A stretch of DNA of 38,243 nucleotides from a virus: positions 1 through 38,243 of IMG/VR virus record IMGVR_UViG_3300010413_000087; one strand, given 5' to 3'. Every line of letters begins with the position of its first letter. Within the stretch, counting starts at the first letter, position 1. Position numbers and translations under genes: made by a program. The notes below the pieces were generated by a model that saw only the letters and a program-made list of their open reading frames with translations, did not search any database and was not told where the DNA came from. Shown piece by piece: positions 12,604 to 36,434 of the stretch.

Positions 12604-15600
12604 ATGACCAACTGGTGGACAAGGGAGAGCGCAGAGCGTAACGAGGAGGCGGAGCAGTGGTCTAGCTCGGCCAATACGTGGTACCAGTATCTGCAGCAGC
12701 AGCAGCAGCAAATGCAGCCGCAGTCTGGGTCGCCATTCGCTCCCCCGGCCACCGACGTGGAACTGCCCAGTCGCTACGCACCCCCGCAGATGCCCGAGTA
12801 TGGGCCAGAGTATAGGCAGGGGCAGGCGGACAATTGGTGGGACTGGCTATGGGGTGGCGTACGCGGGCGAGTAGAAGAGGCATGGCATCGTCCTCTTGAG
12901 GAGCCGGCAGTAGAAGAGGAGCCCGAGACGTTCACCGAGGCGTGGCAGCGTGTATCCGAGGATGTCCAGGCAGAGGAAGGGCTCGGGCGGATCGGCGCTG
13001 CGCTGGGGGGTGCCGCCGGCCTACTGGCGCAGGGCGCAGGTCGACTCGTCGAGGGGGTGGTAGAACCGGTGGTGCGTGGTACCGGGGTCTTGGGGCAGTC
13101 CCTGTCGGCCGGTTTCCAGGCTATACAGGAGCCGGCCAATGTGCTGGAGCAACTGACCGGGGCTGCAGCCATTGCCCTGCGGGGAGAAGCTGACACGGAA
13201 ACGGTGCAGGAATGGGCACCACTGACCGAGAGGACGTGGTCATTGGCGTGGCAGCAGGCGCAGGAGCGGTTGGGGATCAGGGATCCAGAAGAGCTTCAGC
13301 CTGGGCAGATGACTACCGAGGCCTGGGGACGGGACGTGCTAGGCAGAGCGCTCGACGACGTGAAGAGTGGAAGACGGACTGCTAGCCAGATAGTACAGGA
13401 GGAGCAACTACCGATAGCCGAGTTCCTGGGTGCGTTCGCCGCGGATCCGCTGAATGTGATTGACGCGATCAACCCGTCGAACGTGCGGCGTATAAATGCG
13501 GCAATCGAGTCAAGTGAAGTCGCGTACGCCACCCGAGCGGCGGAACTGGCCCAGCAAGCATCGGACCTGGGAGAGGGCAGTCGGGTGCGCCGAGTCGTTG
13601 ACCGAGTGTTCGGTGGACCGGAGGGTGCCCAGCGTCTAAACCCGCTAGCCGCGACAGCGACAGCGAAGGTCGACCAGGATCTCGCCGGCGTCTACCTGTT
13701 TGTAACGGGGCTGACGCACGATGTCGGCAACGGGGGTGAGGCAGTGCGGCGATTGCGGGATTGGATAGCGGATCCCGCAGCTGCAGCGGATGTGTATGGT
13801 GCGGCACTAGCCAGCGAACGAGGCCTGCAGGCGGCAGAAGTACTAAAGGGGCTGGACCTGAACACACTGGCCACCGGGATCCCGGGCAGACGGTTCAATG
13901 CCCGGGCATTTGCCAGCGAGGTAGGGTTGTACGCCCGGGAGGTGCTCGAGGAAACGCATGGCCTGGTAGATCCGCAGGGGTACGCCAAGTTTGCCCGGGC
14001 ATTCAAGGGTTTCTCCAGTGAGTTCTACCTGACGCTAAAGCCCGGGTACTGGTTTAGGAATGCGGTCGACAATGCCGGCACCCTGGCGTATGACGGGATC
14101 CTGGCGTTGGATACGCCGGCGCACATCGACGAGTACCTGGATGCCATCGGTGCGATCTCACTGCGCGCATCGGAACTGGGTGCCATACGGGAGAGCAAGC
14201 TACCATCGGTTCTAGGACGAGCCAGTAACATGGCCAGGACGTTCCTGGCAAAGGCGCACATCGGGGAGGATGCGTTTTTTCGACGGGGATACGTGGGAGC
14301 CCATCGGCGGACTTGGGGAAAGTTGTGGCAGAGTGGGGCTAACGTCCCGAATGTCCCAGACAGCCTGACTCATCTCGAAAGAGAGCTACTGTCAGCGGCA
14401 CGTTCATCCCGCTCCAGCAAAGCGTTGGCCGATGAGATAGAAACGATGCTGCGGGCGACGACCCCCGGCGAGGGATTGCGCGACATTGTGGGGTACCTGG
14501 ACGACGATGCCCTGCAGGCACTGAGCCCAGCCATGCTCGACGATCTACGCATGCAGATCACATCGGCGACATCGATGGATGAGGTCGAGGGGATCCTGGC
14601 CAGAGCGCAGGAAAGCATCCTGGCTCATGGCGATGAAGCGCTTGTGGGGACGGTGATAGATCCAGCCGAGGTTCGGTCGGTCTGGACCGATACAGAGATA
14701 GAGGAGATGAGAGCTTCTCTGGCCACCAGCCTCATGGAAGATGCCAGACGATTTGGCCTGGACGAGGACCAGGCTGTCGCGTCTATCGCTGCATCATTCC
14801 GCCGATGGGAGGAGTTGGATCTGCAGCTGCAGCAGGCAGTCTCGTCGAACATGCGGCAGGCGGCAGAGTTGACGTCGAATGACGCGTTGCAGGTAGTATA
14901 CCGTGCGAACCGACGGTCACAGCGCATCCTAGAAGAGACGCGACGAGTCGTAGATGCTGCCCGGGAGGAGGCCTGGGCGAAAGCGTCTGCGGTGAAGGGG
15001 GTCAGTGCGGTACGTAGGGCAGAACTGGACGTCATCTGGGGAGACTATTTTGCCCTTGCCAGCCGGCAGTGGGATGCCGCATATGCGGCACGTATGGCAG
15101 AGATGGAGAATGCTTGGGCAGATCTGCAGCGGGTCGCTGCCGGCGAGTCTTTCCGTAGCATCAGCGGGCTGGATGCCCGGGCTATGATGGAGGAGCGAGT
15201 GGACTATGCCGCCCGTCGGGCCAGGGACGCACGAGTGGCGCTCGATGAGGCAGCGGACTTTGACCAGAGGTTGGATATTCTTCGCGCCCGGGTGGATATC
15301 GCTCGGGAACGTGCCTGGGGTGCAGCGAACGGGTTGCCAGACCAGCGCACCCTAGATCTACTCGATTCCGCCGACCGGATGGAGCAGATCATCGCTCGAA
15401 AGTGGAGAGCAGAGCGGGAATATCTGCGCCAGTCGATGCTCAAGAGGAGAGAGGCAGCACTTGCTGCGCTTGAGCAGGCCCGGGAGATCAGCAAGACGCT
15501 GCAGCATGACACCAACGTAGAGCTATTCAACGTTGAACTGTGGTTCCGTGCAGCACAGGATGCCCTAGCCAAGGAGAGGTTCCGCGAACTGGCGCAGGTG

Positions 15601-18600
15601 TGGGACATGACAGCTATGCGTATCCGTGGCACTCCAGCACAGAGTCGCCTTGAACGGTTGCTAGCGTTGGACCTGCAGCATACCCATGGGCTAGCCCCAG
15701 ACGAGGCCATGAGACTGGCGTCTGAGCGTGTGGGGGTCGGCGCATTCCCTGAAGGTGAACTGGCCGAGAGGTCGCTAGCCAGGGTACGGGCAGAGGCACA
15801 GGAGATCGCCGGCACGGTCGAGGCTGAGTCGAGGGTATACACTCGTGCCCAGTTCCGCCAGGATCTACGGACGGAGTTCCGGTTGGCGGAGAGCGAGGCA
15901 GTAGGGGTCGAGGCTGTGATGGAAGCCCGGGCGCAGTCATGGGCGGCTCGGACGGGTCGGGATGCTTCTGAGTATTACGGGGAGCGCATTGCCCGTATAA
16001 CCAGCGGCACGGAAAGGCCCGAGTGGATCGCTCCAGACTTTGTGGCGCGGTCGAAAGTGGAGTTTCTCGAGGACGGTCGAGCGGTGATCCGTGCGCTGGA
16101 TCAGCCCAACGTTTCAAGCGTGGTTCATGAACTGGGGCATGTGTTCCGCCGCGACCTTGACGCTGCCGACCTGGCTGTCGCCGAGGACTGGGCAGGGGTA
16201 CGCAATGGGATATGGACCGTCGAGGCAGAGGAGCGATGGGCGAGAGGGTTTGAGCGCTTCCTGGCCGAAGGAAGCGCACCGCACCCATCGCTATATAACG
16301 TCTTTACCCAGTTCAAGGATTGGTTGACCAGGATCTACCGCAATGTAGTCGGCAGTCGGATCGACATCGACCTGAGCGATGACGTGCGGGACGTGATGAA
16401 CCGGTTGCTGCGGGAGAGCGAGGTTCCCGAGTGGCAACGAGCGTACGTACGTTCCGCCACCCCCATAGGGGAAATGCCTATTCGCCGGCCGAGTGACCCC
16501 ACTGAACTGTGGCAGCTGGACGAGGAGCAGTGGTGGATAAACCAGAATGTCGATACGTTCGGTAAGGTCAATGGCCGGCTCACCCGGGAGTTAAACAGGC
16601 TCGAGTTGTGGTTCAATGTGGGTGCGGTGAAGAGTCGGCCATTGCCCCAGGCAGGGACCGTGCGCCGGGGGATCCGAGCCCACGATCTCGGCGAGTTCAT
16701 AGTCGATGCGATAAAGCAGGGGGTGACGCGGCCTTTGCTGGACCCGTCGGTGGACATCATGGATCTGGCCAGGGAGAGGGGGTTACTGGACGATCTCTCC
16801 ACTAAGGCTGCACAGGCCCGCCTCAAAGACTTTACGTCGGATATCGAGTCGCTACGGGCTGCGCGGCAGGCCATGGCCGATCCAACGAACCCCATATGGG
16901 GCAAGGATCTTCTCATCACGAATAACTCCAAGGCTGGAATGTCGTTGGATTTTGGTCTGGCCACCTGCCACCCCACGGTACCATGCCAAGAGTGCTATGC
17001 GGCGGACTTCATGTACAAGGGCGTCATCGGCAAGGTAATGAGGAACACCATTCTACTGTTTGAAGACCCTGTCGGGTTCGGCCGGCGGGCAGCACACGAG
17101 ATCAATATGCACTCGAAGACCGAGTTGCCGTTCATGCGGATGCTAGGTTCCGGTGACCTGACCTCCGACGAAATGATAGAGGCATTCAACATCATCGCCC
17201 AGAACATCGACCGGCCGATCCACATTTTCAGCCGCCACCATCACAACTTGGCGAAGCTAAAAGGGACAGAGGTAGCACCGTGGATAAAGATGGGCAGCAT
17301 AGACGCGGACCTGTACCGGCAGTACGGTCGGCGATATTTGCTGGAGAACCTCGAGAAGCGGGGTATCAACAATGCTTTTCTGTATACCGACGAGTCTGAG
17401 TTGGCCATTCTGGAGGAACTGTATCGGGACGATGCGCTCGGGCTAGTCTTCCCGACGAAGAAGAGTTTATGGGACAACCTCCCCGAGGAGTTGAAGGTGA
17501 GTTCGTGCCCGTGCGACGCTGCAGAACGCAATGCCGTGTCGTCGTGTTTGCAGTGTGCTCTGAGCCAGATGGGTTGCTACATGGTCTACGCCGACAAGTT
17601 CGTGGATAGCAACGGCAATGTCATCAAGGCGACTGCCCTAGAGACTAAGGCGCGCCCACTCCTAAGTTTTTTGCTCGAGGAGAGACAGGCGTATACTACG
17701 CTCAGGCGGGAAGGAAAGCTACCCGAAGTGGCACCCAGTCCCACCGCAGCGGCATTGCAAGAGGGGTTTCACAAGTTGTTGGGGAAGAGCATCACGGACA
17801 TCAACAAAAGCAAGAATAGCTACATCAAAGGCAAACAGGACTACATCCTACTGAAAGACGTTCGGTGGCCGGGGGATAAGATCCACCTGATAGACCGACA
17901 GAGAAGGCTGCAGGCCTTGCAGGCGAAGGATCCCACGGTCACGATGGCCGATCTGGTATCGACGTCGACGGAGAGGTACCTAGAACCTGCCGACGTGCTG
18001 AGTGAAGCGAATGGGTTCATCGGCAACTTCAAGGCGTTGCAGCAGCGGGCGAAGCTGGAAGGCAGGATGTATTTTCCAGGTGGGGAGATCCAGCCCGATG
18101 TAGGGTACGCCCGTTATGGTGAGCGACTGTCCGGTAGGGAATTGGCCGAGTTGGGAGAGCAGCAGAAGACGGAATGGTTGCTGACCGGGGAAGAGGCACC
18201 TGCAGCCCAATATCCCGTCCCGAGGAACGTGAAGTACGGGGTGCCCGAGGGATTGTACCAGTTGCAGGAGGGTACGCCTGGACTGCCTGCTGCGGGTGAT
18301 GTCGGCGCCCAGGCGGGAGCCGGCGGGGTACGCAATCCGAGGACGGAGGAATTGCTAGCCATAGTCGAGCCACAGGCACAACGAGCGCTCGACCAGATCC
18401 GTGATGGGTTGCGACGGGACTGGGATACGTGGAGCGCACGGCAGGTAGACGAGGAGACGATTAGGCAAGCGAGGGGGTGGGTCGAGGAGCAAGTCGCGCC
18501 GGCGATGCGGGATGCAGAGATTGCGTCGGCCGCGGCAGCAGAGACGGTCACCAACTTTGCGCTACACAACTACAAAGCGACCACGAAGCTGGACGATGCG

Positions 18601-20670
18601 CTGTCGCTCGTCTACCCGTATCACTTCTGGTACTCAAGAGCGGGAAAGAATTGGGCGAAACGGCTAGCCAGTAACCCGAGCCGGCTGGCGAACTATCTCC
18701 GCTATCGCACGATGATGCAGCGGATTAACGAGGAGCGAGGTCTACGGAAGAGGTTCGAGGGCAAGTGGAAGCTGCCTATCCCGAATGGCCTGCGCGAAGC
18801 GCTCGGATTGGAGTGGATGTCGCCGGCTGCGTACTTCGATCCCGTCCAATGGATGTTTCCGTATGCCACGTTTGACCGTGCGGATTTTGCCAGCGAGGAG
18901 GAGACTAACTCGTGGCTGGAAAGGGCGTACCGTACGATGCAGATGTACGCACCGCAACCCTACGCCTTTCTACAGGTACCTATGCAGCTAGCAGAGGTCG
19001 GTGGCCTCGAGGAGCGAGAGAGTTTCATGGATATCTGGCCACAGACGGCACCGATCCGCGCAGTGACAGCGGCAATCGGCCTCGGGGGACCGGAGGGCAT
19101 AGATATTGAGAAGCCGATCCGCAAGGCGTTGGGACTACCCGGGCAAGAGCAGTGGCAACCATATCGAGTGCGGCGGATGCTAGCGTCGATGGCAGCTGAC
19201 GAACCGTCGACGACCATGGTAGCACTCCGAGCCCAAGAGCTACAGGATAGGGTCGAGGAGCAGTTGCTACCGCTCGAGGTAGCAGTGGGGGACAGAGAAC
19301 CGGCCGGTGATGAACTGTACAACATTGCTCAGGAGTTCAACTGGACGACGGCCGAGCTAGCGGCAGCGATGGATATGCTTCGAGAGGCTACCGTACGAAG
19401 TGCAGCGGAGTTGGGGATCCGCAAGGCAACGGCGTACCTCACCGGGACCGGTATGACTGTCATGGCTGAAGGCGAGGAACGGCAGATGGAGTTGCAGCGG
19501 GAGGGTCTATCGAAGCTCTGGTCGCCCGAGAACCAGCAGGGCTCCTACGAGGCCTACCGACAGTGGAAGGATTCGCATCCAGAGGTACTCCCCAGGCAGA
19601 AGCAGTACAGAGCGCTACCAGACATCGCGGCCGGTATCGTCGAGATAGAGGAGCGCCAGGGGCTGGGCCCGGGCTCCCATGCCAACTACCTACGGCAACG
19701 GGAGGCCAAAGACCGGATCCATGCCAAGTATGACCGCATGGCGGATGAGCACCTTGCTTCGAACCCGGGCGACTGGGATGGGTATAGGGACATTGAGGAT
19801 GAGCGACGGCGGGAGATCGCGGTCGTCGAGGAACAGTGGCCATTGCCCGATGCCCAGGAGACGGAGAAGATGGCTGGGGACGAGATGCCGCAGGGATGGC
19901 AAGGGCAGTCGCCGGCCGAGTTTGCCGATTACGTGGCAGAGCAGGTAGCGTGGCATGTGCGGGATTCGGAGCCCAAACCGGAAATGTACACAGCCGGCGA
20001 TGAGATTGACTGGGATGGCTACTACGCAGCCCTGGAGGAATGGCAGGCTCAGATCCCCGAGACGCTACCGCAATTGGACGCAGTGCGCGGACTGGGTGGT
20101 CAGTATTCTGATATGACGCTCACCGAGATCCTGACTGCTATCCGCCAGCGATATGACTCCCCGCTTGAGGCAGTGGCCAGGATCTACCATGACATGTTGG
20201 GGGAGCAGTGGGACCGATACTGGCAGGCGCGGGAAGAGGGCCGGCAGGTCTACGACGAAACGGTGGGCGCGTTTCTCGCAACGCGCATGCCGGCCACTGC
20301 GCTCATCGGCGAGGTGTTGGAGCGCTATAAGGCGAAGGGCTGGACGGCAGAGCAGTTGCGTGGGGTGTACGCGAACGTGGTGTTTGGTGCCGCCGCTGCA
20401 GGCGCGGGCGATGCCGAGGGGATCCAGGATCTCGAGGGTGGCGCTGCACCGGGAAAATCGGGCACCACTGACGAAGAGATAGCCCAGCGGGTAGCCACCG
20501 AAGGCTGGCAGGCTGTGTATGGAACCCCCTGGTATGCCAGACGCAGGAGCGGGGGGGGTGGTGGTCGTGGTGGTCGTGGTGGAGGGGGTCGGCCATGGAG
20601 TCCGTATGTGCCACCCCGATGGGAGCAACCGGCGAAGGAGTATGGGGGACCACGTTGGAGGAGGATCTAG
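12604..20670 (+). CDS. Giant multi-domain internal virion (polyvalent-type) protein
   Basis: A 2688-aa protein, 21% of the genome. The first 90 residues are Gln/Pro-rich. Residues about 470-530 (YWFRNAVDNAGTLAYDGI) and 1990-2130 (YPYHFWYSRAGKNWAKRLA, then Met/Trp-rich amphipathic segments) resemble ejection proteins that line a DNA channel. Residues about 700-1060 are long helices. H1175-E-L-G-H1179 is a zincin motif, followed by a likely third ligand region (EERWARGFERFLAEG). Residues about 1440-1670 are Cys-rich: C1455-x5-C1461-x2-C1464, an SGDL motif near 1517, then C1635, C1637, C1648, C1651, C1658. This resembles the phage gene-product-88 family from memory. The C-terminus is an RGG-rich tail. 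It probably enters the host with the DNA. Confidence 0.72.
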   Translation: MTNWWTRESAERNEEAEQWSSSANTWYQYLQQQQQQMQPQSGSPFAPPATDVELPSRYAPPQMPEYGPEYRQGQADNWWDWLWGGVRGRVEEAWHRPLEEPAVEEEPETFTEAWQRVSEDVQAEEGLGRIGAALGGAAGLLAQGAGRLVEGVVEPVVRGTGVLGQSLSAGFQAIQEPANVLEQLTGAAAIALRGEADTETVQEWAPLTERTWSLAWQQAQERLGIRDPEELQPGQMTTEAWGRDVLGRALDDVKSGRRTASQIVQEEQLPIAEFLGAFAADPLNVIDAINPSNVRRINAAIESSEVAYATRAAELAQQASDLGEGSRVRRVVDRVFGGPEGAQRLNPLAATATAKVDQDLAGVYLFVTGLTHDVGNGGEAVRRLRDWIADPAAAADVYGAALASERGLQAAEVLKGLDLNTLATGIPGRRFNARAFASEVGLYAREVLEETHGLVDPQGYAKFARAFKGFSSEFYLTLKPGYWFRNAVDNAGTLAYDGILALDTPAHIDEYLDAIGAISLRASELGAIRESKLPSVLGRASNMARTFLAKAHIGEDAFFRRGYVGAHRRTWGKLWQSGANVPNVPDSLTHLERELLSAARSSRSSKALADEIETMLRATTPGEGLRDIVGYLDDDALQALSPAMLDDLRMQITSATSMDEVEGILARAQESILAHGDEALVGTVIDPAEVRSVWTDTEIEEMRASLATSLMEDARRFGLDEDQAVASIAASFRRWEELDLQLQQAVSSNMRQAAELTSNDALQVVYRANRRSQRILEETRRVVDAAREEAWAKASAVKGVSAVRRAELDVIWGDYFALASRQWDAAYAARMAEMENAWADLQRVAAGESFRSISGLDARAMMEERVDYAARRARDARVALDEAADFDQRLDILRARVDIARERAWGAANGLPDQRTLDLLDSADRMEQIIARKWRAEREYLRQSMLKRREAALAALEQAREISKTLQHDTNVELFNVELWFRAAQDALAKERFRELAQVWDMTAMRIRGTPAQSRLERLLALDLQHTHGLAPDEAMRLASERVGVGAFPEGELAERSLARVRAEAQEIAGTVEAESRVYTRAQFRQDLRTEFRLAESEAVGVEAVMEARAQSWAARTGRDASEYYGERIARITSGTERPEWIAPDFVARSKVEFLEDGRAVIRALDQPNVSSVVHELGHVFRRDLDAADLAVAEDWAGVRNGIWTVEAEERWARGFERFLAEGSAPHPSLYNVFTQFKDWLTRIYRNVVGSRIDIDLSDDVRDVMNRLLRESEVPEWQRAYVRSATPIGEMPIRRPSDPTELWQLDEEQWWINQNVDTFGKVNGRLTRELNRLELWFNVGAVKSRPLPQAGTVRRGIRAHDLGEFIVDAIKQGVTRPLLDPSVDIMDLARERGLLDDLSTKAAQARLKDFTSDIESLRAARQAMADPTNPIWGKDLLITNNSKAGMSLDFGLATCHPTVPCQECYAADFMYKGVIGKVMRNTILLFEDPVGFGRRAAHEINMHSKTELPFMRMLGSGDLTSDEMIEAFNIIAQNIDRPIHIFSRHHHNLAKLKGTEVAPWIKMGSIDADLYRQYGRRYLLENLEKRGINNAFLYTDESELAILEELYRDDALGLVFPTKKSLWDNLPEELKVSSCPCDAAERNAVSSCLQCALSQMGCYMVYADKFVDSNGNVIKATALETKARPLLSFLLEERQAYTTLRREGKLPEVAPSPTAAALQEGFHKLLGKSITDINKSKNSYIKGKQDYILLKDVRWPGDKIHLIDRQRRLQALQAKDPTVTMADLVSTSTERYLEPADVLSEANGFIGNFKALQQRAKLEGRMYFPGGEIQPDVGYARYGERLSGRELAELGEQQKTEWLLTGEEAPAAQYPVPRNVKYGVPEGLYQLQEGTPGLPAAGDVGAQAGAGGVRNPRTEELLAIVEPQAQRALDQIRDGLRRDWDTWSARQVDEETIRQARGWVEEQVAPAMRDAEIASAAAAETVTNFALHNYKATTKLDDALSLVYPYHFWYSRAGKNWAKRLASNPSRLANYLRYRTMMQRINEERGLRKRFEGKWKLPIPNGLREALGLEWMSPAAYFDPVQWMFPYATFDRADFASEEETNSWLERAYRTMQMYAPQPYAFLQVPMQLAEVGGLEERESFMDIWPQTAPIRAVTAAIGLGGPEGIDIEKPIRKALGLPGQEQWQPYRVRRMLASMAADEPSTTMVALRAQELQDRVEEQLLPLEVAVGDREPAGDELYNIAQEFNWTTAELAAAMDMLREATVRSAAELGIRKATAYLTGTGMTVMAEGEERQMELQREGLSKLWSPENQQGSYEAYRQWKDSHPEVLPRQKQYRALPDIAAGIVEIEERQGLGPGSHANYLRQREAKDRIHAKYDRMADEHLASNPGDWDGYRDIEDERRREIAVVEEQWPLPDAQETEKMAGDEMPQGWQGQSPAEFADYVAEQVAWHVRDSEPKPEMYTAGDEIDWDGYYAALEEWQAQIPETLPQLDAVRGLGGQYSDMTLTEILTAIRQRYDSPLEAVARIYHDMLGEQWDRYWQAREEGRQVYDETVGAFLATRMPATALIGEVLERYKAKGWTAEQLRGVYANVVFGAAAAGAGDAEGIQDLEGGAAPGKSGTTDEEIAQRVATEGWQAVYGTPWYARRRSGGGGGRGGRGGGGRPWSPYVPPRWEQPAKEYGGPRWRRI

Positions 20671-22275: not shown

Positions 22276-23274
22276 ATGCCTGTCACGATTAACGATATCG
22301 CCCAGGCTAGCGAGTCGCCACTGTACAAGGGGGTTCTGTTGCAGATCTTGCAGACCTCCGATATCATTGGCAAGCTGCCGTGGGTTAACAAAAAGGCCCT
22401 TCAGGTCACGGGTGTTCGCGTACAGAACCTCGTCACTCCCGGTTTCCGAGTGTGGAACGGTGGGTACAGTGAGGACACTTCGGATCTGGAGCAGTGGACC
22501 GACGGGTTGTTCCCGTTCGGGCTTGACCTCTATCTCGAAAAGCAGTTCGAGGATCTAGAGGATCTTATCGAGCCGGCCAGTGTGACGCAGCAACGGGCTG
22601 CGCTGCAGGCCACTTCCATGGAGTTCAACTACCATTTCATCGAGGGCACCCCCGCCGGTGGTGGGTTCTCGGGGCTGCGGCATCGTGTAATGGATGCCGG
22701 CACCCCGGCCGCGTGTCGCATCGACCTGGCTTCTTCGGGAGACGCACTGAAGGTACTGGCTAGTGCCGCGAACTCCCATACCCTGTTGGATGCCATCCAT
22801 GAGGGGATCGACGTGCTGGGCGGCAAGTGCGACATGATCATCAGCAACCGTCGAACCCGTCTCGCTCTGGCCTCCATCCTTCGCCGGCAGAACCTCCTCG
22901 ACACGACCCGGGACCAGTTTGACCGATGGATCGCTTCGTTTATGGGCGCCCAGCTAATCAACATCGGCACCCGGGCGGACCAAGCTACAGACATCATTGC
23001 GGAGACTGAAGACCCGGGTGACGGTGGCGACGATGCGACCTCGATGTATCTGGTACGCACCGGCACCCCGAACGGGGATGCCAATGTCATCGGTGGTGAT
23101 GGTCTGCACGGGATCCAGAAGGAGAACCCTGTCATCTACGACCCGTTGAACGGCGGGGAAATGGAAGCTCGGCCGGCCTACATTCGAAGGCTCGATTGGC
23201 CACTGACCGTCTCTCAGGTGGGCGATCAGGTCTGTATCGTCAGAGTCTACGGGTTCCGCCCGTATACTGCCTAG
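22276..23274 (+). CDS. Major capsid protein (HK97-like fold)
   Basis: A 332-aa coat protein. The N-terminus (MPVTINDIAQASESPLYKGV) has a helix typical of this fold. It continues with E-loop-like strands (ALQVTGVRVQNLVTPGFRVW), a long spine helix region with QFEDLEDLIEPA, and an ATSMEFNYHFIEG segment. The central domain has DMIISNRRTRLALASILR, near the end of the P/A domain core. The C-terminus returns to beta strands (WPLTVSQVGDQVCIVRVYGF). There is no N-terminal delta domain long enough to act as an internal scaffold, which agrees with the separate scaffold gene upstream. GGAGGA precedes the ATG. Confidence 0.88.
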   Translation: MPVTINDIAQASESPLYKGVLLQILQTSDIIGKLPWVNKKALQVTGVRVQNLVTPGFRVWNGGYSEDTSDLEQWTDGLFPFGLDLYLEKQFEDLEDLIEPASVTQQRAALQATSMEFNYHFIEGTPAGGGFSGLRHRVMDAGTPAACRIDLASSGDALKVLASAANSHTLLDAIHEGIDVLGGKCDMIISNRRTRLALASILRRQNLLDTTRDQFDRWIASFMGAQLINIGTRADQATDIIAETEDPGDGGDDATSMYLVRTGTPNGDANVIGGDGLHGIQKENPVIYDPLNGGEMEARPAYIRRLDWPLTVSQVGDQVCIVRVYGFRPYTA

Positions 23275-23817: not shown

Positions 23818-24678
23818 ATGCATGACTTTGAGGACTATACAACTACAGATCTCGGGGATGTGCCTGCGTACATCCCCCGCTACGCTATCGGGTGCCCCGG
23901 GTCACCGACGGCCGCGATGATGCGCTCGATGGTGCATCTGGAGCGCCCACCGTTGACACCGTTTCTGGATGCCGGTATGGATCTACCTGGGTCGCAGAAG
24001 CTCGACATCGCATCGGCGCGGAACCACTTGGTCGAGATGTTCCTGACGGCGCATGAAAAGCACGACTGGCTCCCCGAGCCACTCAATTGGTTGCTGATGG
24101 TGGATGGTGACGCAGTGCTGCATCCCCAAACGTTGCGCCGGCTAGCATCATGGAATAAGGCAGTAGTGGGCGCGCTATGCGTCACACGGTATAAGCCCTA
24201 CCAGCCCGTCGTATACCGGGGACTGGCTACCGACCGTGGCGGCGACATGCGGTCGCACTACATCCAATGGCAGGAGGTGCGACAGTGGGTCATGGATCAT
24301 CCTGCACTTGTGACCCTAGCCGGTTACTCGCTACTCGAGCCGGCACCCGAGGATAGCCTGCATCCTGTCGACTGGACAGGCTCCCACACCTTTCTGGTGC
24401 ATCGCACGGTATTCGAGGCTGTGCCGGCACCGTGGTTTGAGGTGGCCAGTAAGATCCGCTATGGCAGCGGGAGCGACCGGTTGTTCTTCGAGAAGGTCAA
24501 CGCGCATGGCTTCCAGACGTATGTGGACTACTCGGTGGTCGCTGGACATGATGCCCGTAGTACGCTGGGGATGGCAGACTTTATGGCATGGCAATCAATC
24601 AGCATCGCAGAGAGTGGGAACGGTGATCGCCATTGGGTGGGCGACGACATCGTAGAGAGAGCACCCGACGATGGGTAG
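23818..24678 (+). CDS. Glycosyltransferase (GT-A fold, GT2-like)
   Basis: A 286-aa sugar transferase. Residues 62-75 (LDIASARNHLVEMF) carry the Arg/Asn motif that often precedes the nucleotide site. LNWLLMVDGDAVLHPQTL contains the DxD motif, D96-G-D98, which binds a metal ion and nucleotide sugar. Later segments match the family: a WTGSHTFLVHRTVFEAVPAP acceptor region, GSGSDRLFFEKV with a likely acidic catalytic residue, and VVAGHD near residue 254. No membrane span. It sits between the decoration protein and a sulfotransferase. It may glycosylate virion proteins or host surface sugars. The acceptor is unknown. Confidence 0.8.
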   Translation: MHDFEDYTTTDLGDVPAYIPRYAIGCPGSPTAAMMRSMVHLERPPLTPFLDAGMDLPGSQKLDIASARNHLVEMFLTAHEKHDWLPEPLNWLLMVDGDAVLHPQTLRRLASWNKAVVGALCVTRYKPYQPVVYRGLATDRGGDMRSHYIQWQEVRQWVMDHPALVTLAGYSLLEPAPEDSLHPVDWTGSHTFLVHRTVFEAVPAPWFEVASKIRYGSGSDRLFFEKVNAHGFQTYVDYSVVAGHDARSTLGMADFMAWQSISIAESGNGDRHWVGDDIVERAPDDG

Positions 24679-25450
24679 CCCGTTCTTTGTGGTGGGCAGC
24701 GGGCGATGTGGGACGCTATCGATGGCACTGACGCTGAGTCAGCATCCCCGACTGTGTGCCATCCACGAACCCTACATCGACCTTATCGAAGCGTCGTACA
24801 GGCGGCTCGGGGATCTTGATTGGGGAACAGACCGGGACGGGCGCACAAACGTCTATGAGTATCTTCGGACGGTATGCCCACTGCCGGCTGGACCGCAAAG
24901 AGTTGGCATCGTAGACCACGCTCTGGCCAATCTCATCGGGGATATCGGCCGAGCCTTTGGCCACAATACTCAGGTGGTGTGGCTTGTGCGGGATGGTCGC
25001 AGGGTGGTGGCCTCGGGGATGGGCAGGGGTTGGTACACACAGAAGGAGAGGCTATACCCCCCGCACGAGTGGGCGAAGTATCGGTGGCGGGGTGACCTGG
25101 CGGGCGACGTCGACGAGCAGACGTGGAACGACATGGGCCCATTCGCCCGCAATTGCTGGTACTGGAGTGCCGTGAACCAGCGTATCCGTACGGGATTGGC
25201 AGAGGCGAGTGCCTTTGTACGCTGGCGCAAGGTACATCTAGAGACGCTGACGTCTGAGGTTGTTGATGATCTGCATTGGTGGCTAGGGGTCGAACCCCTT
25301 CGCGTTCCTGTAGCAGTCTCCAACACAGGCGGCAAGGCTGTGGAGAAATGGCAGCCAGAGAACTGGTCGGACGAGTACAAAGAGACATTTGAGCGATGGT
25401 GCGGCGAAGAGATGGAGCGGTTGGGATATCCGCTCGCCGAGGAGGAGTGA
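24671..25450 (+). CDS. Sulfotransferase (PAPS-dependent)
   Basis: A 259-aa protein overlapping the glycosyltransferase stop by 8 bases. G9-S-G-R-C-G-T15 is the 5'-phosphosulfate-binding loop, followed by the helix LSMALTLSQHP. VVWLVRDGRRVVASG (103-116) is the 3'-phosphate-binding strand, with R107 and S115 in the expected places. A Trp-rich region and LETLTSEVVDDLHWWLGVEP follow as in bacterial sulfotransferases. It should transfer sulfate from PAPS to a sugar or tyrosine hydroxyl. The overlap with the sugar transferase suggests they act in sequence on one glycan. Acceptor unknown. Confidence 0.82.
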   Translation: MGSPFFVVGSGRCGTLSMALTLSQHPRLCAIHEPYIDLIEASYRRLGDLDWGTDRDGRTNVYEYLRTVCPLPAGPQRVGIVDHALANLIGDIGRAFGHNTQVVWLVRDGRRVVASGMGRGWYTQKERLYPPHEWAKYRWRGDLAGDVDEQTWNDMGPFARNCWYWSAVNQRIRTGLAEASAFVRWRKVHLETLTSEVVDDLHWWLGVEPLRVPVAVSNTGGKAVEKWQPENWSDEYKETFERWCGEEMERLGYPLAEEE

Positions 25451-33463: not shown

Positions 33464-35934
33464 TGATGCAGTGGGATGTCTACCTAAACGGGCTCGGATT
33501 CATGTTGGCGAAGACCCCAGACGGCCGGCTCCTGTCGGGTGCGATACGGGACCAGAGGTCTGATCCGTTCATGCGGTACGTCCAAGAGAATGAGCGGTGG
33601 AAGAGAGCGAGCTTTTACTTCGACCAGGGAGCCGGCGCAGGACGGGTGGACGGGTCACACCGCTATAGGCGGGGCTGGCGGATAGATAGCCGGGGTGGCA
33701 AGCTCATCCGTGCCCCCCAGGTCACGGTCCACCAGGCGGAGTCGGGCTTATTGGTGCGCTCGGAGCCTGATACCAACATCTACGACAGGGAACTATCCGA
33801 CCGTGTCGGTGCTGACAAGTGGGAGGGTATGGGGGTTTTGTTCACGGTGCCCAGCGGGAAGACGCAAATGCGTGGCGCTGCGGTGATGCTCAAGCGAGAA
33901 GCCGGGGTAGACTATGGTGCGGCAGCAAATGCCAACTTCGACCTGCGGCTTGATAGTGCAGGCACCCCGGGCGCTATCAAAGGCACTGTCGCGTTCCCGA
34001 TGAAGAGCCTGGAAAAAGACTGGCCGATTCTTACGGTGACCGACCCGTGGGAAGGGGAAGACTATCACTATCACTATCTCTATCTCACGGCAGCGGAGAC
34101 GGTCACCGCAGCGAGTGACTATTGGCTATGCATCCGCAATGACCAGTCGTATCGGTTGTACTGGGCGCAGAATGAGGACGATGCGACGGCGACGGTATCT
34201 GAGTACAATGGGTCCACCTGGGCTGCGGGGGTGGGCTCGAGCGACAGGCCATTTTATAAAATCAACTTTGTTGGTGACGTGGATGGTCCTGTCCGGTGCT
34301 TTTGTGAGTTTCGAGGCAGCGACAACGAGAAGCGGTTGTACGCAGCGGTAGGTACCAGTGTCATGTATTGGACTGCTGGTACCTCACGCTGGACTACCTC
34401 GATGAGCACGTTCACGTCCGACGTTCGGGCGTTGATTGTGTTCAACTCCAGGCTATTTGCGGGGCAGGGACCGGACAACGATATGTACTCGTCTACCGGA
34501 GCCACCGGTTCCACGGTTTGGTCAGCTGTCACGGGGCAGCAGGCGAGTGCGTTCGCTATCCATGACTCGCTTCTGTGGAAAGCGGACGGAGCCAGCGTCA
34601 ATGGCAGTAGCACAGGTACTGCATGGACTGGTGCCGCTGTGGACGTAGGCGACCCCGGTACACCGGTATCGGCTATGTGTTCGCACGGTGGGTCGTTGTT
34701 CGTGTTCAAGCAGGAGGGTGTCTTTGAACTGAGTTACCCAGATACGTACCCCTCCACTGGCACTCCGACGGCCAATCTGGTCATCGACCTGCACACCGAG
34801 ATGGTGGGGAGACGCTGGGCATTGGATTGGCACTCTGGGTTGTACTTCGCGGGCTACAATGGTGTGTACGAGTGGAAGAACGGGGTGCTGCGGGATATAT
34901 GGTCAGAACGATTGGATGATGACCTGCCAGAGGTCGCAGAGAAACCGGGGGTGTGGACTCGGCCGAACCGCACAGCACCGGTAAGCGGCACCGGCCCGAA
35001 GGGTGTCCCGCAATTCCGTGCCGCCTGCGGTACGACCAGGGGGTTGGTGGTCGCCTGCGATAGCCCGCACCGAACGCTGTCCGGTCTGTGGTGGTATGAC
35101 GGTCGTTGGTGGCATCCGCTGTGGCAAATACCCGACTATGAGATGGAGTACATCACCGCAGTAATTGTCCAGGCGTACGGAGCCGGCCGCGGGCGAGTAG
35201 TGTTCGCCAAGGGGCACGATATGGCATCCTTTGTGATGCCGACGTGGACAGTGGACAACACTGAAGACCCATACGCTGGATACGATACGGAGGATGGGCA
35301 GGTCGAGTTGCCCCTATTCGATGACGATCTCCCGCACATGATTAAGGACTTCCACGCAGTGGGTGTGAAGTTGCAGAATGCAAGTGTAGCTAACGGGACG
35401 GTAAAGGTGTACTATCTCCTCGACGCAGAGGACGCTACATCCGACGACCCCAGCGACTGGTCGTACTTGGGCCAGGTCACAACGAGTGGATACCAGGAAC
35501 TCGCATTCGGTAGCAATACCTGGGGTCGCACTATTCGGCTCTTGCTGGTCATGCAGGCAACCGGGACGACGTCGACGGTAGAGGTCGAGCACGTTGATTT
35601 GCTATTCCAGCCGCGACCGGACACGATTAAGCAGTATCAGGTCGTCATCCGAGCCGCCGAGAACCTGCCGCTACACGGAGGTGGGCATGATACACAATCA
35701 GCTGCAGATATTATCGGCAAGCTGCAAGGCCTGCTCGAGGTGGCGGAGCCCTTTGTCTTCATAGATGAGTTGGGAGCATCCCACACTGTCATGGCCCTCG
35801 GGGTGACGAAGCTGCCCAGCCGGCACATCCAGTCGGGCGGGGTTCGGCCGTCTATCGAGGCGCAGGTCGTAGTCACAATGCTGGATGTGGAAACCAGACA
35901 TGAGCAAGAGGGTGAGTGGCAATTGCCATCATGA
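33463..35934 (+). CDS. Tail hub/nozzle protein (beta-propeller-like)
   Basis: An 823-aa protein overlapping the previous stop (TAATG). It contains many short WD/propeller-like units, such as RLYAAVGTSVMYWTAGTSRW, SRLFAGQGPDNDMYSSTGA, SLLWKADGASVNGSSTGTAW and GLYFAGYNGVYEWKNGVLRD. A preceding Trp/Tyr-rich domain (DPWEGEDYHYHYLYL) and a C-terminal beta domain (TVKVYYLLDAEDATS, HVDLLFQPRPD) flank them. Length and gene order after the adaptors match the nozzle/hub of podoviruses (such as T7 gp12 or P22 gp10), which caps the portal channel. The functional name is by analogy. Confidence 0.7.
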   Translation: MMQWDVYLNGLGFMLAKTPDGRLLSGAIRDQRSDPFMRYVQENERWKRASFYFDQGAGAGRVDGSHRYRRGWRIDSRGGKLIRAPQVTVHQAESGLLVRSEPDTNIYDRELSDRVGADKWEGMGVLFTVPSGKTQMRGAAVMLKREAGVDYGAAANANFDLRLDSAGTPGAIKGTVAFPMKSLEKDWPILTVTDPWEGEDYHYHYLYLTAAETVTAASDYWLCIRNDQSYRLYWAQNEDDATATVSEYNGSTWAAGVGSSDRPFYKINFVGDVDGPVRCFCEFRGSDNEKRLYAAVGTSVMYWTAGTSRWTTSMSTFTSDVRALIVFNSRLFAGQGPDNDMYSSTGATGSTVWSAVTGQQASAFAIHDSLLWKADGASVNGSSTGTAWTGAAVDVGDPGTPVSAMCSHGGSLFVFKQEGVFELSYPDTYPSTGTPTANLVIDLHTEMVGRRWALDWHSGLYFAGYNGVYEWKNGVLRDIWSERLDDDLPEVAEKPGVWTRPNRTAPVSGTGPKGVPQFRAACGTTRGLVVACDSPHRTLSGLWWYDGRWWHPLWQIPDYEMEYITAVIVQAYGAGRGRVVFAKGHDMASFVMPTWTVDNTEDPYAGYDTEDGQVELPLFDDDLPHMIKDFHAVGVKLQNASVANGTVKVYYLLDAEDATSDDPSDWSYLGQVTTSGYQELAFGSNTWGRTIRLLLVMQATGTTSTVEVEHVDLLFQPRPDTIKQYQVVIRAAENLPLHGGGHDTQSAADIIGKLQGLLEVAEPFVFIDELGASHTVMALGVTKLPSRHIQSGGVRPSIEAQVVVTMLDVETRHEQEGEWQLPS

Positions 35935-36434
35935 AGGGTATACAAGGCCTACCGGGGATAGCGGACCTACCAGACCTCTTTGCGTTTGAAGAAGCGAGTT
36001 GGGACGAGATCCCAGCCTTTCGCCCGATAGCGACCCGTCCCCAAATACCCGGGCTGAGGGGAGATCCGCTGGAAGCTGCGGCGATGCAGGGGGTGGATGC
36101 CTCGCTACCCGAGCGAATTGTATGGAACTGGCTAGAGAGAGAGGGCCATCACTACGAGGCATCGTACAATTTGCTGGGTGGCCGGTTGATGATTGGTGGC
36201 GCGGTCGTAGACTTTATCGTTTACGACATGGCGGCGACCCCGGTGGCGTTGCGAGTCATGGGCGATTATTGGCATGGGCCGGGGTTCCCTGACCGGCAGG
36301 AGCGGGACGACGAGCAGGCCGGCTCCCTACGCCGGCTGGGCTATCAGGTCGTCGACCTGTGGGAGCATGACATCTACGAGGCAGTGGTGAAGAACCGGCT
36401 GACCGAGTATATAGAAGGGGAGGTGAGAGACTGA
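35916..36434 (+). CDS. Vsr/DUF559-like putative endonuclease
   Basis: A 172-aa protein. The GTG at 35916, with AGAGGGTGA upstream, is preferred over ATG 35931. Residues 62-152 follow the Vsr-like PD-(D/E)XK pattern: E66 in LPERIVWNWLEREGHHYE, GGRLMIGGAVVDF with D99, then VALRVMGDYWHG (W119-H120), and LGYQVVDLWEHDIYE (E150). The usual E/Q-x-K step after D99 is replaced by A-L-R, so catalysis may be weak or use other residues. Position between tail hub and a basic protein suggests entry with the DNA or DNA processing at packaging. Confidence 0.65.
   Translation: MAIAIMKGIQGLPGIADLPDLFAFEEASWDEIPAFRPIATRPQIPGLRGDPLEAAAMQGVDASLPERIVWNWLEREGHHYEASYNLLGGRLMIGGAVVDFIVYDMAATPVALRVMGDYWHGPGFPDRQERDDEQAGSLRRLGYQVVDLWEHDIYEAVVKNRLTEYIEGEVRD

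Follow-up and report, generated by a model that had tools for sequence, protein, structure and literature searches.

The window analyzed here is the whole 38,243-base virus record IMGVR_UViG_3300010413_000087. One open reading frame (ORF) takes up 21% of it, in agreement with the preliminary description, which had assigned a fifth of the genome to a single gene. This ORF and the gene that marks the virion gene block are as follows.

12604..20670, + strand: giant polyvalent-type protein of 2688 aa, a single ORF with an ATG start
22276..23274, + strand: major capsid protein, by which the virion gene block is recognized (phrog_212, 3e-26)

The capsid gene is situated downstream of the giant gene. 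Among the podophages that were examined, the usual order is a structural lysozyme, transglycosylase or comparable (lysis-type) gene, then the giant gene, then a tail fibre or spike gene, and phage isolates with a zincin region like that of the window encode giants of about 2000-2750 aa. Pseudomonas phage UFJF_PfDIW6 and Caulobacter phage Jess A are cultured phages with relatives in this giant family. In MW202608, the giant of which resembles the window protein in the C-terminal part only, the gene is located between the terminase/lysin genes and the capsid gene. The protein is thus encoded among virion genes, with the capsid gene starting at 22276 in the window and lysozyme or transglycosylase genes preceding related giants.

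Channel-forming, Trp/Tyr-rich flanks had also been proposed but found no support: Trp was high in the first 100 residues only (9 Trp), and the Kyte-Doolittle score was 1.4 or lower in every 19-residue window. Likewise, the suggested comparison with MuF-type proteins yielded no homology, as no MuF domain was found in the giant protein in Pfam or PHROGs scans. Elsewhere in the window, positions 24671-25450 in the virion gene block encode a 259-aa product with a P-loop-like start and a weak Sulfotransfer_3 match (1.5e-4, below the cut-off), and positions 35916-36434 gave a weak MTES_1575 endonuclease-like match (1.3e-3, below the cut-off).

The zincin domain

16045..16416, + strand: zincin metallopeptidase domain, aa 1148-1271 (phrog_9880, 1.7e-19; 34-40% identity to phage giants)
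16126..16140, + strand: HELGH zinc-binding motif, aa 1175-1179 (H, E and H conserved at 98, 98 and 99% in 89 aligned rows)
16231..16233, + strand: E1210, probable third zinc ligand (helix glutamate), with E1217 as the alternative (E1210 is invariant in alignment A1 and 99% conserved in the 89 rows)

The match to phrog_9880, at aa 1149-1270, was the only PHROGs match of the giant protein. This family corresponds to the zincin part of comparable phage proteins of 2000 residues, and its match to the window protein is confined to aa 1149-1270. When viral contigs were scanned with the aligned zincin, at least 519 relatives were confirmed. Both E1210 and E1217 sit in an ExWARGFE stretch and align with the phage giants, and their near-invariance is partly circular because the scan pattern covered this stretch and selected for it. 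With HELGH and a downstream glutamate both aligned with those of homologues, residues 1148-1271 are, by sequence, a phage zincin, bearing out the earlier reading of HELGH and its context.

A GP88 module C-terminal to the zincin

16474..18108, + strand: candidate GP88 cargo module, aa ~1291-1835 (36% identity to L096 over aa 1291-1835; six-sequence alignment A6)
16870..17694, + strand: GP88 core domain, aa 1423-1697 (Pfam PF17338, 24.5-24.8 bits; hhalign to the solo GP88 profile, 96.6%, 6e-10)
16966..16995, + strand: first Cys cluster, CX5CX2C (CHPTVPCQEC), C1455-C1461-C1464 (invariant or at least 90% conserved in 62 GP88 sequences)
17149..17160, + strand: SGDL motif, aa 1516-1519 (S-G-D invariant in GP88; the motif immediately follows strand 2 in the GP88 model)
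17293..17304, + strand: GSID motif, probable equivalent of the Ser that ends strand 4 in solo GP88 (S140 of L110; A6, equivalence judged by eye)
17506..17577, + strand: second Cys cluster, C1635, C1637, C1648, C1651 and C1658 (spaced alike in six other giants; four of these Cys correspond to ones that are nearly invariant in GP88)

The PF17338 (GP88) score was 20.4 bits for the whole protein and 24.5-24.8 bits for the segment, just above the curated cut-off of 24.4, and the hhalign match was to a profile of 55 solo GP88 proteins. The family, which contains mycobacteriophage D29 gp88 and its relatives, conserves three Cys, S-G-D and a C-terminal Cys cluster as the module does; seven Cys and S-G-D are common to the module and GP88 in alignment A9 (62 sequences). 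The profile matches, the relatives and the conserved Cys spacing agree, confirming the resemblance to GP88 that had been noticed, and CX5CX2C (1455-1464), SGDL (1516-1519) and the five Cys (1635-1658) all lie exactly where they had been placed. Whereas the PF17338 members seen are mostly stand-alone genes of ~200-260 aa, the GP88 domain of the window is embedded in a giant; only this giant form has the extra C1637 and the extensions at the N- and C-terminal ends of the module. GP88 members cross-matched DUF7227 (PF23872) and DUF5131 (PF07505) at 1.7e-6 and 8e-4, respectively, but the window domain matched neither at E ≤ 10. Sequence matches of the module in the PDB were judged to be chance. 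The G+C content of the GP88 core is 0.551, lower than in the flanking segments (0.59-0.64).

Seven distinct module sequences were found in giants (the window, L096, L098, L100, L103, L104 and L105), after leaving out L097, L101 and L102, which duplicate others. Between the window and the other six, all from viral contigs, the module is ~40% identical overall and 45-52% identical in the core. Full-length and single-domain seeds retrieved no relatives in viral contigs and alignment-based scans were needed; two scans of genome contigs gave none, nor were any found among phage isolates. The six relatives carry polyvalent domains, namely InPase, LPD38, LPD22, LPD23, ART-PolyVal, GGDEF, RadC and a weak RelA_SpoT. 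Unlike domains are therefore combined in one long chain, with a zincin and GP88 in one ORF in the window and up to five known domains in homologues.

Several occurrences of GP88 were noted in passing. The 3634-aa giant at L105:7082-17983 holds GGDEF, RadC, GP88, a weak methyltransferase match and ART-PolyVal together. The 103-kb contig IMGVR_UViG_3300028840_004913 (L097 and L098) has two giant GP88-module genes, each of which is also found alone in contigs of ~42-60 kb, an arrangement that may reflect two joined viruses or an assembly effect. GP88-like sequences were also seen on 37 actinobacterial plasmids, mostly of Streptomyces (e.g. NZ_CP086232.1).

Confinement of cysteines to the module

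The eight Cys of the two clusters are the only ones in the whole protein. The probability that eight random positions fall within ≤204 of 2688 residues is ~1e-7, and this was reached in 0 of 500,000 simulations. The Cys spacing is 5, 2, 171, 1, 10, 2, 6 in five of the module giants, with 170 in the window and 172 in L105 at the third interval. Beyond these eight, Cys is lacking in L096, L098, L100 and L103; L105 contains one more and L104 two more.

Cysteine is scarce in zincin giants generally. Among those of at least 1500 aa (n = 76), 45 are Cys-free and 67 contain one Cys or none, and the density is 0.29 Cys per 1000 aa versus 7.0 in other ORFs of 300-1500 aa, not all of which are real genes. 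The two zincin giants with eight or more Cys, L019 and L057, carry them in a different Cys-rich domain that is N-terminal to the zincin. The Cys-rich modules are therefore the exception that the near-Cys-free backbone tolerates. This second kind of Cys-rich domain (L019:2300-3514 and L057:8861-9967; CX8CX2C ... CCx4Cx2Cx2CC) has a partial stand-alone relative in Moorella phage MTATph1.

Variable sequence on both sides of the zincin

13078..16014, + strand: N-terminal backbone, aa 159-1137, common to the zincin giants L017 and L021 (blastp)
18298..20652, + strand: C-terminal backbone, aa 1899-2683, common to L017, L021 and partly MW202608 (33-38% identity, 6e-93 to 7e-123; L007, 26%, 2e-15)

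At 27-60% identity, L017 (3957 aa) and L021 (4170 aa) resemble the window protein in three stretches, the N-terminal part (to 1137), the zincin (to ~1270) and the C-terminal part (from ~1899). In the N-terminal backbone, blastp gave 32% identity and 1e-111 for L017 (aa 159-1114) and 27% and 4e-61 for L021 (aa 57-1137). Residues 1272-1898 of the window protein, in contrast, had no match in L017 or L021. Because the two giants share the N-terminus, the zincin and the C-terminus with the window protein but have unrelated sequence at the place of the module, the cassette has been exchanged, and the GP88 module is cargo that can be swapped next to the protease.

L017 and L021 have 1343 and 1514 aa, respectively, between the N-terminal part and the zincin, versus about ten in the window, so two variable slots flank the zincin, the second of which is filled by the GP88 module in the window. 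The upstream slot (aa 1353-2695 of L017 and aa 1195-2708 of L021) is large and variable and has a shared 'QSDWHQ' segment; in L017, two ART-like 'VLYHGT' repeats were recognized in it by eye, and isolates match pieces of it. L104 has the module first and then the zincin, the reverse of the order in the window. Only the window and L104 among the GP88-module giants carry the phage zincin profile; L096, L100 and L103 have HExxH motifs outside the zincin clade of the window, and L105 is without that zincin. Because the profile is restricted to these two, the zincin and GP88 are not an obligate pair.

Predicted fold of stand-alone GP88 proteins

A viral scan with canonical GP88 confirmed 417 loci, of which 80 were kept; the ORFs examined were short stand-alone genes. 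Full or nearly full conservation was seen in 62 aligned GP88 sequences for the three Cys, S-G-D, an R, an N and the four C-terminal Cys. For the 531-aa module of the window itself, the AF2 model (6 sequences) was poor (pLDDT 65.5), and its PDB matches were set aside for that reason. As judged by eye, strand 4 of the giant module is wrongly aligned with the solo proteins in A9, so a second structure was built on the solo GP88 protein L110 with 55 sequences. Because the model of the window's module was poor, structural statements about it draw on the hhalign homology given above.

The L110 model was confident (pLDDT 92.7, pTM 0.89) and predicted a small alpha/beta domain. The Cys loop comes after strand 1 and S87-G88-D89 after strand 81-84; T115 and S140 are the last residues of strands 110-115 and 135-140, respectively. 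With several invariant residues at strand ends in the model, these resemble an active site located at a mouth of the predicted alpha/beta domain. Foldseek searches with the two models (window module and L110) gave no PDB match below 0.001; the L110 matches included many TIM barrels, none with E < 0.1. In a viral library, the best match of the poor window-module model was a large protein annotated as 'Gene product 88 domain-containing protein' (A0A6J5RM19, 5.4e-6), so GP88 in large phage proteins is already in databases, where no function is stated.

Discussion

Because it joins a zincin and GP88 in one ORF, lies in the virion gene block and has relatives with polyvalent domains, the giant is very probably a phage polyvalent protein with a zincin and GP88 cargo. 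The 'polyvalent' layout with several activities that had been suggested is thereby upheld for the zincin and GP88 domains and for the gene block, but not for the channel-forming flanks. Polyvalent proteins with a zincin-like MPTase, such as DdrB of phage P1, are large multidomain products of the late gene block with a zincin hub and variable cargo, as here (Iyer et al. 2017, PMC5512222). Their zincin-like MPTases are a hub domain that probably processes them, and they bear ART-PolyVal, InPase, GGDEF, RadC and LPD domains, as do the relatives of the window protein (PMC5512222). The coliphage N4 virion RNA polymerase gp50 is, like the window protein, a giant with an HExxH domain; this podophage protein is ejected, and its proposed passage through the tail resembles beads on a string (PMC12633501). 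The cargo of gp50 is an RNA polymerase, whereas no RNA polymerase domain was found in the window protein.

The giant protein is likely injected with the DNA, probably after being packed in the head. That it is instead a structural protein that remains in the head or tail is quite improbable, as the polyvalent cargo domains of its homologues act on cytoplasmic targets. The near-Cys-free backbone would bear the zincin and, just C-terminal to it, the exchangeable GP88 cargo, and the zincin would most likely release this cargo by cleaving the protein within or near the slots. A zincin aimed mainly at host proteins, with the GP88 module as a passenger or a vestige, finds a parallel in the host-directed zincin effectors considered in PMC5512222, but seven different giants keep the Cys spacing and the catalytic-looking residues, and we regard this alternative as highly improbable. 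Once freed by the zincin, the GP88 cargo would probably fold in the host cytoplasm and bind two host-made Fe-S clusters, one at the three Cys at the alpha/beta mouth and one at the four or five Cys near the C-terminus. With the three-Cys set, one iron of the cluster would stay free, the situation found in enzymes whose cluster binds a substrate or SAM; we would therefore predict a redox or radical-type enzyme that acts early in infection to modify a molecule of the host or the phage.

That the module is an enzyme is rather probable, and it is somewhat more likely to bind Fe-S than Zn. Zinc is often bound by Cys-rich clusters, and the PDB sequence and fold searches named no enzyme with confidence, as would suit a non-enzymatic Zn-binding domain with a role in cargo stability or in binding to DNA, RNA or a host protein. 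However, the invariant S-G-D, R, N and S besides the Cys, several of them at strand ends, resemble an active site and a lone three-Cys set is unusual for Zn, which makes such a domain unlikely. A radical-SAM assignment was first drawn from the motif layout, with three Cys after strand 1, SGD after strand 2, an S ending strand 4 and a Cys-rich C-terminus; the weak Foldseek matches of the GP88 model, mostly TIM barrels, point the same way. The window protein has CX5CX2C rather than the CX3CX2C of the radical-SAM superfamily, in which non-canonical spacings also exist. The assignment was downgraded after the hhalign control and Foldseek: GP88 scored 0.2-2.7% against a QueE profile that found MoaA at 87% and PflA at 93%, no Radical_SAM Pfam match was among the families shown for the 62 GP88 members and no radical-SAM enzyme was among the 50 best fold matches of the model. 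True radical-SAM chemistry is therefore doubtful, although the motif layout permits similar chemistry. A fused radical SAM/alphaKG-HExxH enzyme, of the type cited in PMC12633501, was also disfavored, since the HExxH of the window protein falls within the phage zincin clade and is found separately from the Cys module.

Taken as a whole, the explanation that we prefer, an injected polyvalent protein with a near-Cys-free backbone, a zincin and an exchangeable Fe-S-type GP88 cargo, is reasonably probable. A more speculative extension is that phages inject an Fe-S, possibly radical-SAM-type, enzyme as the protease-released cargo of an otherwise Cys-free giant, with the clusters loaded from the host after entry. 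Zincin-hub polyvalent proteins are already known. GP88 is apparently the new element among their cargoes, because it is absent from the main text of PMC5512222, a text that mentions no Fe-S or Cys-rich cargo of any kind, and from the main texts of further polyvalent-protein or related surveys. The near absence of Cys outside the GP88 module and one other Cys-rich module suggests a packaging or threading constraint, and also that Cys-bearing cargo is kept for its chemistry. Because the cargo slot adjoins the zincin, the idea that the zincin processes the chain can be tested directly. These results give the uncharacterized GP88 family a functional setting and enlarge the cargo range of injected phage proteins by a type that is apparently undescribed, and the GP88 domain type could be a new kind of injected enzyme.
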